Shown: piece by piece, positions 8,171-57,612 of the stretch | Layout of the letters: each line of letters opens with the position of its first letter | How positions within the stretch are numbered: position 1 is the stretch's first letter | Source: Afipia massiliensis | Lineage (GTDB): Bacteria; Pseudomonadota; Alphaproteobacteria; Rhizobiales; Xanthobacteraceae | Assembly: GCF_001006325.2 (NCBI RefSeq) | Contig: NZ_LBIA02000001.1 | Span: forward strand, 3,597,501 to 3,661,500 | DNA: 64,000 nt | Direction of reading: 5' to 3' | Notes under the pieces: model-generated | Seen by the model: the letters and a program-made list of their open reading frames with translations, nothing else | The model's database searches: none | What the model was told of the DNA's origin: nothing | Translations under genes and position numbers: made by a program

Positions 8171-8238
8171 TGGCACGTTTGTGGCTTTGGCACATTTGTC
8201 GCGTTGGCACATTTGTCGCGTTGGCACATTTGTCGCAT
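8171..8238 (+). repeat. Four tandem 17-bp units with sigma-54 -24/-12 spacing, upstream of glsA
   Basis: Units lie at 8171-8187, 8188-8204, 8205-8221 and 8222-8238. The two middle copies are identical (TGGCACATTTGTCGCGT), the last differs at one base, and the first is diverged. In every unit a GG and a GC are separated by exactly 10 bases, the spacing of RpoN promoters (TGGCAC-N5-TTGC). The first unit, TGGCACG-TTTG-TGGCT, differs from the consensus core at one key base. The array ends 46 bases before the glutaminase ATG, so transcription from the last unit would start about 35 bases ahead of it. Confidence 0.7.
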
Positions 8239-11894: not shown

Positions 11895-11962
11895 CCGTTC
11901 GTCCCCGCGAAGGCGGGACCTAGGGCAAAGAACTTTATTCCCGCTTGCGCGGGAATGAGCGG
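11895..11962. repeat. Bipartite palindromic element, copy A
   Basis: Two palindromes face each other. One is built on GTCCCCGCGAAGGCGGGAC, with one damaged arm; the other, at 11938-11957, is built on ATTCCCGCTTGCGCGGGAAT and ends GAGCGG. They are separated by an 18-base spacer and lie in the 125-bp gap between convergent alkB and rnd. It belongs to the same family as the elements near 13.6, 23.7, 26.2, 48.2 and 57 kb. Confidence 0.8.
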
Positions 11963-13590: not shown

Positions 13591-13658
13591 CCGCTCGTCC
13601 CCGCGCAAGCGGGGACCCAGAGCAACGGCCGGATTCCCGCTTTCGCGGGAATGAGCGG
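13591..13658. repeat. Bipartite palindromic element, copy B
   Basis: A left palindrome CCGCTCGTCCCCGCG...CGGGGACCCAG (13591-13620) and a right palindrome GGATTCCCGC...GCGGGAATGAGCGG (13631-13657) are separated by 10 bases. The outer ends are CCGCTC/GAGCGG and the inner ends CCAG/GG. It is the same element as copy C at 23703, in reverse orientation. Confidence 0.9.
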
Positions 13659-23702: not shown

Positions 23703-23773
23703 CCGCTCATTCCCGCGCAAGCGGGAATCCAGTTCGTCAAATTCTGGGTCCCCGCTTACGCGGGGACGAGCGG
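23703..23773. repeat. Bipartite palindromic element, copy C
   Basis: The left palindrome CCGCTCATTCCCGCG...GCGGGAATCCAG (23703-23732) and the right palindrome CTGGGTCCCCGC...GCGGGGACGAGCGG are separated by about 11 bases. It has the same design as copy B, inverted. It lies between the membrane protein and L,D-transpeptidase genes. Confidence 0.9.
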
Positions 23774-26169: not shown

Positions 26170-26229
26170 TCACTCGTGATGACGGTGGTGCGATCCGTCA
26201 TTGTGAGGAGCGCTTGCCGTTTCCATCCC

Positions 26230-26298
26230 CGCTCGTCCCCGCGAAAGCGGGGACCCACGCACGCAACGCTGGATTCCCGCTTTCGCGGGAATGAGCAG
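26230..26298. repeat. Bipartite palindromic element, copy D
   Basis: CCGCTCGTCCCCGCGAAAGC... (26230-26257) faces GGATTCCCGCTTTCGCGGGA... (26272-26298), with a spacer of about 15 bases. It has the same orientation as copy B. It lies downstream of creA. Confidence 0.88.
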
Positions 26299-26361
26299 AG
26301 AGGACACGTTCTCTAGTTCATCACGAACACACGCCAGCTCGCTCGCAATGACATCAGGCGA

Positions 26362-30071: not shown

Positions 30072-30155
30072 CGTCATTGCGAGCGAAGCGAAGCAATCCA
30101 GTCCTGAGAAAGACAGAGGCTGGATTGCTTCGTCGCTTTGCTCCTCGCAATGACG
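30072..30155. repeat. Bipartite inverted repeat of a second family (CATTGCGAGCGAAGC type)
   Basis: A left arm 30072-30101, starting CGTCATTGCGAGCGAAGCG and ending AATCCAG, faces a right arm 30120-30155, starting CTGGATTGCTTCGTCGC and ending CAATGACG. The spacer is 18 bases. It is a common intergenic repeat type. The inner ends CCAG...CTGG are the same as in the GTCCCC/ATTCCC elements. Confidence 0.85.
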
Positions 30156-48150: not shown

Positions 48151-48180
48151 CCGCTCATCCCCGCGCATGCGGGGATCCAG
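48151..48180. repeat. Single palindrome of the GIY-YIG-linked family, copy E
   Basis: CCGCTCATCCCCGCGCATGC followed by GGGGATCCAG: a 30-base palindrome identical in all 30 positions to the one at 57054-57083, which precedes the GIY-YIG gene. Here it stands alone as a half element. Confidence 0.88.
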
Positions 48181-56287: not shown

Positions 56288-56324
56288 CGCGTCCGCGTGA
56301 ACCCGCGCGCCTTGCTAGACTCTG

Positions 56325-56486
56325 TCAGAGCGGCGAGGCGAGCGGCACTCGCGCGAGGGTCTGTGTCGTCACTTGATAGTGTGTACCCATGTACAGGATC
56401 GCGGACCCCGCGAGGATCATGATCGCGATCACCAACGCCAGACACATCTGCGTTTCACGTCTCTCGTTGTCGAGATGAAGCCGCAT
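56325..56486 (-). CDS. Small single-span membrane protein
   Basis: A 53-residue protein: MRLHLDNERRETQMCLALVI then AIMILAGSAILYMGTHYQVT. It has one transmembrane helix with a charged N-terminus inside. GGAG lies 8 bases before the ATG at 56486. No known family. Confidence 0.55.
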   Translation of the reverse strand: MRLHLDNERRETQMCLALVIAIMILAGSAILYMGTHYQVTTQTLARVPLASPL

Positions 56487-56656
56487 GGCGCGTTCTCCGC
56501 TCGCCTCCGGAGAACAATACGCCCGGGGCCGCAGCGTTCCAGCAACAGGGCTGACGTATCCGATAAGTTTATGTGCGGTGCGGAAGGTTGACGGTTTGCG
56601 GCCGGCTTTGAGGCGGGACCGTTTCCCGTTGATGAACCGGGCGGAGGAAGCCGCCG

Positions 56657-56941: not shown

Positions 56942-57053
56942 GGGGATCGTCCTTTCAGGCATATGATGCCGGTGCCCTGAAGGAGCGTAGCACAGTCTGG
57001 AGGAGCGCCGGCCAATTGTTTCCGTTGATCCTCGGCTGCTAAAATCCCGTTCT

Positions 57054-57083
57054 CCGCTCATCCCCGCGCATGCGGGGATCCAG
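57054..57083. repeat. Palindrome framing the GIY-YIG gene, left side (copy F)
   Basis: CCGCTCATCCCCGCGCATGC followed by GGGGATCCAG. It ends 12 bases before the GIY-YIG ATG. It matches the reverse complement of 57439-57468 at 26 of 30 positions. The changes at positions 7 and 26 compensate each other, so pairing inside each palindrome is kept. Confidence 0.9.
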
Positions 57084-57095
57084 AGGCAACGCAAT

Positions 57096-57383
57096 ATGAG
57101 CTTCTTCGTCTACATGCTGGCAAGCCAACGAAACGGCACGCTCTACATCGGCATGACCGACGATCTGCCGCGCCGCGTCTGGCAGCACCGGACGGGGGCC
57201 GTGCCGGGATTCACGTCACGATACGAGGTGAAGATGCTGGTTTGGTATCAAGCGCATGAGAGCCGGGAGTCAGCCTTCATGCGCGAGCGGCAATTGAAGA
57301 AATGGAATCGCGGCTGGAAGATTGCTTTGATCGAGGCAGGCAATCCGGAGTGGCGGGATTTGTTTGAGGATTTGTCGCCGTGA
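57096..57383 (+). CDS. Small GIY-YIG nuclease
   Basis: A 95-residue stand-alone GIY-YIG domain (UPF0213-like). FFVYMLASQRNGTLYIGMTDDLPRRVWQHRTG holds the two Tyr elements, Arg26 and His31. ESRESAFMRERQLKKWNR holds Glu64, the likely metal ligand. All catalytic positions appear intact. No other domain is fused. It lies between two inverted 30-bp palindromes, with another palindrome just outside to the right, so it appears to be the coding part of a palindromic element. Its cellular role is unknown. Confidence 0.9.
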   Translation: MSFFVYMLASQRNGTLYIGMTDDLPRRVWQHRTGAVPGFTSRYEVKMLVWYQAHESRESAFMRERQLKKWNRGWKIALIEAGNPEWRDLFEDLSP

Positions 57384-57438
57384 TTCTTCGTTGATCGCGT
57401 GGGCATCGGATCAAGTGCACTTGCTGTCAGGTTCCTTT

Positions 57439-57468
57439 CTGGGTCCCCGCTTTCGCGGGGACGAGCGG
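57439..57468. repeat. Palindrome framing the GIY-YIG gene, right side (copy G1)
   Basis: CTGGGTCCCCGCTTTCGCGG followed by GGACGAGCGG. It is inverted relative to 57054-57083, with the CCAG/CTGG ends facing the gene, and lies 55 bases after the stop codon. Confidence 0.9.
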
Positions 57469-57491
57469 ATGGGGGAGCGATCTCGCACCAC

Positions 57492-57521
57492 CCGCTCATT
57501 CCCGCGCAAGCGGGAATCCAG
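57492..57521. repeat. Additional palindrome right of the GIY-YIG element (copy G2)
   Basis: CCGCTCATTCCCGCGCAAGC followed by GGGAATCCAG: the ATTCCC type, 23 bases beyond G1 and in the opposite orientation, so the outer CCGCTC/GAGCGG ends meet. It may be the first half of a neighbouring element whose second half is lost. Confidence 0.88.
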
Positions 57522-57612
57522 TCAATACCTACCGGTGAAATTTGGGATGGGGCGGAAGTAGCCGCATGGAGCGCAGCGCAATGCGGGGGAGATGGCGGCC
57601 GCGGATGCAGCC

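Follow-up and report, generated by a model that had tools for sequence, protein, structure and literature searches.

Extragenic palindromes are common repeats of bacterial genomes and, to our knowledge, few of them outside the RAYT-linked ones have been assigned a maker. In the window, meaning here the whole stretch of 64,000 nucleotides of Afipia massiliensis that was analysed, a small gene for a GIY-YIG nuclease lies between two inverted palindromes, and the same palindromes recur elsewhere as inverted pairs with no gene between them. This arrangement raises the question of whether nuclease and palindromes belong to one system, and of what kind that system might be. The observation is real and reaches beyond the window, and it suggests a miniature system of mobile elements that relies on a nuclease and not on any known transposase. 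The explanation which we consider probable is a two-ended palindromic mobile element that carries the gene of an Ssn-like, sequence-specific nuclease, with the gene-less pairs as its non-autonomous, REPIN-like relatives.

The nuclease gene and its frame

The gene-bearing locus spans positions 57054-57521 and is read entirely on the forward strand. A left-end palindrome of the AT type (57054..57083; CCGCTC-ATCCCCGC-GCAT-GCGGGGAT-CCAG), whose single-stranded DNA hairpin has a predicted energy of -9.8 kcal/mol, stands upstream of the nuclease gene (57096..57383; ATG start, 95 amino acids). This is followed by a right-end palindrome of the GT type in inverted orientation relative to the left end (57439..57468; CTGG-GTCCCCGC-TTTC-GCGGGGAC-GAGCGG). 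We refer to this palindrome type and its nuclease as class A. The coordinates of gene and frame, taken from a preliminary description of the window, all proved exact on re-check. Absent from that description is a third palindrome, of the left type (ATTCCC), at 57492..57521 on the same strand, 23 bp past the right end. Genome G017 carries the same gene at the same locus, with three palindromes in the same arrangement as in the window.

The protein is an Ssn-like, single-domain nuclease. Its only Pfam domain is GIY-YIG (PF01541, residues 3-75, E=1.1e-14), and it contains neither a second domain nor a Y1 transposase domain. Residues Y17, G19, R27, H31 and E64, which we take to be the catalytic positions, are invariant in an alignment of seven proteins, and the gene relatives in G017, G014 and G009 are 76-88% identical. 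The protein matched no NCBIfam model and no defence-system model, Rfam had no match over 57000-57600, and no relatives were found in the phage records searched; 35 of 72,556 plasmid records contain relatives. The closest named relative, L102 (87%), lies on a 3.2-kb contig which is labelled Lentisphaeria and has class A palindromes, and which is perhaps a wrongly binned alphaproteobacterial contig. Elsewhere in the window, about four units of a 17-bp tandem repeat, TGGCACATTTGTCGCGT, occupy 8171-8236.

Framing of small GIY-YIG genes

The source genome has eleven GIY-YIG matches, seven of which are small proteins of the window gene's type. Six of these seven genes are framed, namely the window gene by CCGCTC (class A), three genes by GTCGTCCCCGC (B), one by GTCATGGCCGGGC (C) and one by GTCATTGCGAG (D). 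Beside the seventh gene, D palindromes occur on the downstream side alone. Framing was scored by comparing inverted arms in the 250 bp upstream of a gene with those in the 300 bp downstream, at a threshold score of at least 14 and a stricter cut of 17. Within the genus, inverted arms occur on both sides of 51 of 53 small GIY-YIG genes (45/47 of this type and 6/6 of a related clade H). Another family of small GIY-YIG genes, from which one gene was taken in each of 14 genomes of the genus, is framed in 0 of 14 cases, and thus not every small GIY-YIG gene belongs to the association. This family (YVGWTND...SREWHLKRDRAFR; L006, L085, L088-L095, L097, L099-L101) is a natural negative control. The genus set comprises 73 rows, of which 7 come from the window's own genome, 60 were fetched and 6 were left out (three weak rows, two that are pieces of genes already fetched, and one at the edge of a contig). 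One gene of a third type, L098, has no arms (score 8.5) and is counted in neither the 53 nor the 14, and the genes of G042-G044 lie outside the 53 and outside the protein tree described below.

The association is also found well beyond the genus. Among the 80 best loci across bacteria, 66 are framed, compared with 30 of 1297 intervals shifted within these loci and 11 of 1500 random intervals of the window. In the phylum, 200 genomes were sampled and 54 had a match; from 29 of the other 53 the best match was taken as a locus, and 20 of these 29 loci are framed against 18 of 499 intervals, the 20 including one locus, L309 (score 14.0), whose arm is not a palindrome. At the cut of 17, the figures are 61/80 against 7/1297 across bacteria and 19/29 against 3/499 in the phylum. 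Relatives without flanking arms at the threshold number 2/53 in the genus, 14/80 across bacteria and 9/29 in the phylum. Shifted intervals were preferred to a null distribution in which loci exchanged their upstream and downstream flanks, because the palindromes of different species are alike; 570 of 1500 swapped pairs reached 14. The preliminary description had proposed collecting small GIY-YIG genes and looking for flanking palindromes, and most of those collected in the genus, the phylum sample and across bacteria do have them. It had also named, as the finding that would speak against the idea, a majority of unflanked genes. Overall this majority did not appear, and it holds only for the one other family with 0/14.

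Palindrome classes follow nuclease clades

When nine palindrome classes and the state "none" were placed on a tree of 68 nuclease proteins, the distribution required 9 changes, the minimum possible, compared with an average of 47.3 for shuffled class labels; 0 of 200 shuffles were as low as 9. The tree is built on 91 columns only, with 19 of 65 inner branches open, and eight of the 68 labels (L003, L045, L046, L047, L048, L059, L060, L080) were set by hand from the arms because the motif search had missed one side. Seven of the nine classes each fill one side of a branch. Class B needs two changes, as a close variant, Bp (GTCGTCCCGGC), sits inside it, and so does class C, owing to L066, a single row on a long branch. 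A more distant GIY-YIG clade with a YVGSATG or YTGTTR motif (L082, L083, L084, L086, L087, L096) is framed by a different class, GTCATCCTGAGG / CCTCATCCTGAGG, and the association therefore reaches beyond the Ssn-like clade.

That nuclease clade and palindrome class go together is thus strongly supported, and so are the linkage of gene and palindrome and the REPIN/RAYT-like architecture which the preliminary description had put forward. From the sequences we infer that each nuclease recognises its own palindrome class and drives the spread of that class. The match between class and clade amounts to a direct and testable assignment of makers for nine palindrome classes of one genus, with seven classes going to one clade each, B to the group that holds Bp, and C to a clade plus the stray L066. 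It is also the observation that speaks against a passenger role for the gene, in which another transposase, for example a RAYT, would move the palindromes and the GIY-YIG gene would merely be carried along. In favour of this role, we know of no joining activity among GIY-YIG enzymes; a passenger would hardly be expected to follow palindrome class with the fewest possible changes, however, and we regard this role as very improbable.

Class A palindromes in the source genome and its relatives

The palindromes are far too numerous in the source genome to have arisen by chance. The core TYCCCGCN4GCGGGRA has 200 copies in 4.5 Mb, compared with 0 for the reversed control, and the strict pattern has 33 copies, again with 0 in the reversed control. 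For these two patterns a chance origin is ruled out, whereas the loose pattern CCGCTCN5-30CCAG is weak alone (14 found, 8.2 expected; 6 of 100 shuffles reach as many). Compensating changes in the stems, claimed in the preliminary description, are borne out by pair counts over 97 palindrome instances with 23 distinct sequences, copies which are not independent because some of the loci overlap. Stem pair 1-20 is A-T in 51 and G-C in 46 instances, pair 3-18 is C-G in 54, T-A in 42 and broken in 1, and pair 4-17 is broken in 2 of the 97.

The outer ends of class A read TCT-CCGCTC / GAGCGG. Outer arms GATCC...ATTGAA had at first been taken for part of the element, from several copies of the source genome, and were then rejected. 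Over 37 rows, among them one false pairing (palindromes 57439 and 57492), conservation beyond the palindromes comes down to about TCT in front of them and some ten bases, weakly conserved, behind them. No consistent target-site duplication was found over the copies and orthologous sites compared; by eye, short direct repeats (GAATTC; AAGCTTTyACT) adjoin two elements of the window.

Palindrome number goes with gene presence. Class A palindromes are present in 9 of 29 genomes, with counts of 3, 5, 26 and 32 in the four genomes that have a class A gene; among the 25 without the gene, twenty have 0 and the others 3, 6, 14, 23 and 25 (one-sided rank test p=0.0008 and presence p=0.005, kinship ignored). 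Class B counts are 7, 24, 35, 48, 48, 77 and 130 with the gene, whereas of the genomes without it twenty have between 0 and 19 and two have 58 and 60 (rank test p=0.0018, kinship ignored), and the presence of class B alone is not significantly associated with the gene (p=0.16, kinship ignored). Some of the assemblies counted are fragmented. Five of the nine genomes with class A palindromes have no matching gene, some of them with many palindromes, and the gene is therefore not needed to keep the palindromes.

This persistence is what would be expected if the nuclease belonged to an Ssn-type site system that is not itself mobile, in which the enzyme acts on incoming or replicating single strands, as in the control of transformation, the palindromes are kept as its sites, and recombination or another enzyme spreads them. 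A relative of the protein in N. gonorrhoeae (63% identical), whose 3.3-kb locus contains seven CGTCATTCCCGCN4GCGGGAATC palindromes, fits such a system as well. We nevertheless consider an immobile site system possible but rather unlikely, as the gene-less pairs described next look like a transposable unit, with unlike ends in 35 of 36, sites without the pair in relatives, a nested pair and a deletion derivative.

Gene-less pairs as units

Four gene-less pairs lie in the window at 11.9, 13.6, 23.7 and 26.2 kb. All four, reported in the preliminary description, are real, with the qualification that the left palindrome of the first pair (11895..11962, reverse strand) is degenerate. It is of the GT type, with CCGTTC, one stem base missing and CCTAGG in place of CCAG. 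The second pair (13591..13658, reverse strand) has a GT end followed by an AT end, and the third (23703..23773, forward strand) an AT end followed by a GT end. The fourth (26229..26298, reverse strand) lies between the two ends of an element formed by D-class palindromes (GTCATTG.GAG). D-class (TCATTG.GAG) palindrome pairs occupy 26198-26351, with the class A pair between the ends, and 30074-30153. A solo palindrome of the left type stands at 48151..48180 on the forward strand and has the same sequence as that upstream of the gene.

In 8 of 29 genomes there are intact class A pairs separated by a short spacer, 36 in all, and in 35 of them one end is ATTCCC...GGGAAT and the other GTCCCC...GGGGAC. 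The four gene-bearing copies likewise have an AT end upstream and a GT end downstream, with the AT end reading ATCCCC...GGGGAT. The left end is thus ATCCCC in 4/4 gene-bearing copies and ATTCCC in 35/35 gene-less pairs examined, so that most gene-less pairs are a subfamily of their own and not direct deletions of the present gene copies. By eye, many of them share a CTTCAAA-like spacer, which suggests that gene-less pairs also multiply as such.

Comparison with orthologous sites, which the preliminary description had proposed, revealed several pairs that are missing in relatives, while the 23.7-kb pair lacks a clean empty site. The 13.6-kb pair is absent from seven aligned relatives, six of which have no insert and one of which, G041, has a short unrelated sequence; in G017, a class A palindrome occupies the corresponding position. 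The 11.9-kb pair is present in G019 and missing in G002, G004, G024 and G044. At 23.7 kb, G042 retains a piece of the pair, and a match in G019 appears to span the joined flanks. At 26.2 kb, G017 and G011 have the D element without the class A pair inside. Of six aligned pairs from elsewhere in the source genome, four (L234, L236, L239, L240) have relatives without the pair. A missing pair may reflect loss rather than absence of gain; for the 13.6-kb pair, gain is the simpler reading because of the number of relatives without it. At the remaining two of the six, L235 and L243, different species hold different palindrome families at the same intergenic site, as if some intergenic sites were palindrome hot spots.

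Loss of the gene can be seen directly at one site. At the position in G042 orthologous to the solo palindrome at 48151, both palindromes surround about the first seven and the last eight codons of the gene, the middle of which is deleted. A gene-bearing element therefore occupied a second site 9 kb away at some time, and deletion can turn such an element into gene-less or solo palindromes. For the gene-bearing copy of the window no clean empty site was found, as G019 and G002 match one flank only. In the close relative G042, different sequence takes the place of the whole segment 56995-58930, which contains the nuclease gene and a 403-aa ORF after it, between flanks that are about 92-94% identical.

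The same sites bear on homing, in which the gene-less pairs would be older and moved by other means, and the nuclease gene would copy itself into them, in the manner of GIY-YIG homing endonucleases, by cutting a pair and serving as the template of its repair. Homing usually destroys its target, however, and here both palindromes are intact around the gene, even though the gene does occupy the place of the short spacer in the gene-less copies. The surroundings of the gene in two relatives would agree with homing. The flanks of the gene in G009 do not match those in the window, and in G014 the gene is in the same neighbourhood, between the homologues of window 55281 and 56320 and not after 56994, hence on the opposite side of the homologue of 56320-56583, either by a local move or by rearrangement. 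GIY-YIG was also first seen in homing endonucleases (PMC1564403). Yet the gene-less pairs themselves vary in presence between species, their left end differs from that of the gene copies, and the G042 site records the loss and not the gain of a gene, all of which makes homing improbable.

A mobile element agrees better with these pairs, which look mobile by their unlike ends, their absence in relatives, the nested pair and the deletion derivative. Least credible of all is the reading in which the palindromes do no more than terminate transcription or stabilise mRNA as hairpins and the gene next to them is unrelated. Several elements do stand just after stop codons, and L234 and L239 adjoin a terminator-like hairpin (by eye), but inverted pairs, unlike ends, the match of class and clade and the 0/14 of the control family would be left unexplained, and we give this reading hardly any credence.

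Folding and proposed mechanism

Of 35 distinct pairs, counted without the false pairing 57439/57492, 26 have a four-way junction as their predicted minimum-energy structure in single-stranded DNA, and the other 9 a long hairpin. The outer CCGCTC/GAGCGG stem is closed in 24 of the 26 predicted junctions. With one end of the AT and the other of the GT type, the long hairpin is weakened, and the unlike ends of class A may therefore have been selected. In classes B and C the ends beside the genes are nearly identical, so that unlike ends are not general.

In the element that we propose, the nuclease would cut its own palindrome where a single DNA strand has folded into a hairpin or a four-way junction, and such single strands would come from the replication fork or from incoming DNA. 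The elements would then spread through cleavage together with host repair or replication. At least one gene-less copy arose when the gene was deleted from between its palindromes, and most gene-less pairs form their own subfamily with a slightly different left end, at intergenic sites that are empty in relatives. A GIY-YIG nuclease hydrolyses DNA and we know of no joining step, which counts against this explanation. Other points against it are the genomes that keep palindromes after lacking the gene, the different left end of the gene-less pairs, the relatives whose genes have no arms, and the fact that neither a clean empty site for the gene-bearing copy nor a consistent target-site duplication turned up. 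In a wider and more tentative form, to which we lean somewhat less than halfway, the system would stand for a class of bacterial mobile elements moved by GIY-YIG nucleases that cut folded palindromes, with host repair or replication inserting them, with many nuclease-palindrome families per genome, and accounting for much of the palindrome load of Proteobacteria. The assignment of palindrome classes to nuclease clades would also yield many nucleases whose recognition sequences differ and can be predicted, and would link the spread of repeats through genomes to an enzyme that possibly processes single strands.

Comparison with known systems

The preliminary description knew of no account of such a system, and in this it was probably mistaken. 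The Ssn family, reportedly described by Chenal, Veyrier and colleagues in Nat Commun in 2025, is said to consist of site-specific single-strand GIY-YIG nucleases associated with NTS repeats in pathogenic Neisseria, and thus to join small GIY-YIG nucleases to genome-wide cognate repeats. The same study is said to have found thousands of relatives with cognate sequences of their own and repeats in very many copies, and in Neisseria the nuclease reportedly modulates natural transformation. We take the 95-aa nuclease to fit this family, which also consists of small single-domain proteins, and here too a cognate repeat is present in many copies (33 strict, 200 core) and frames the gene. The N. gonorrhoeae relative, with similar palindromes around it, speaks for this kinship. 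The enzyme is most likely of the Ssn kind and would cut single-stranded DNA. The present system may differ from Ssn in that its two palindromes form an inverted unit whose ends are unlike, with copies that lack the gene, relatives in which sites are unoccupied, and one deletion derivative.

In architecture the closest parallel is the REPIN/RAYT system. Two articles describe a gene between two inverted REPs, hairpin-forming pairs as replicative units, coevolution of enzyme and palindrome, and a copy number that goes with gene presence (PMC3116915, PMC2817692). Here, the gene is likewise flanked by two inverted palindromes (51/53 in the genus), enzyme and palindrome match, abundance goes with the gene (kinship ignored), and inverted pairs are dispersed as units with predicted folding as single-stranded DNA. 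The enzyme, however, is a GIY-YIG nuclease and theirs an IS200/IS605-like tyrosine (Y1) transposase; the class A ends lack the GT(A/G)G head of REPs (PMC2817692), differ from each other, and are predicted to fold into a four-way junction in 26/35 pairs. As both enzyme and palindrome head differ, the present system works like a REPIN/RAYT system without being one. In these two texts the term GIY-YIG has 0 occurrences (PMC2817692, PMC3116915).

Two further groups of GIY-YIG proteins invite comparison. The small UPF0213 proteins are similar in sequence and size (solved example 1zg2, phmmer E=0.00018), whereas the separate YVGWTND family of these genomes has no palindrome frame. GIY-YIG homing endonucleases, which lie in an intron or intein or have an added DNA-binding domain, share the catalytic domain and the selfish-element context with the present nuclease, which by contrast is stand-alone, framed by palindromes and composed of the GIY-YIG domain with no further Pfam domain.
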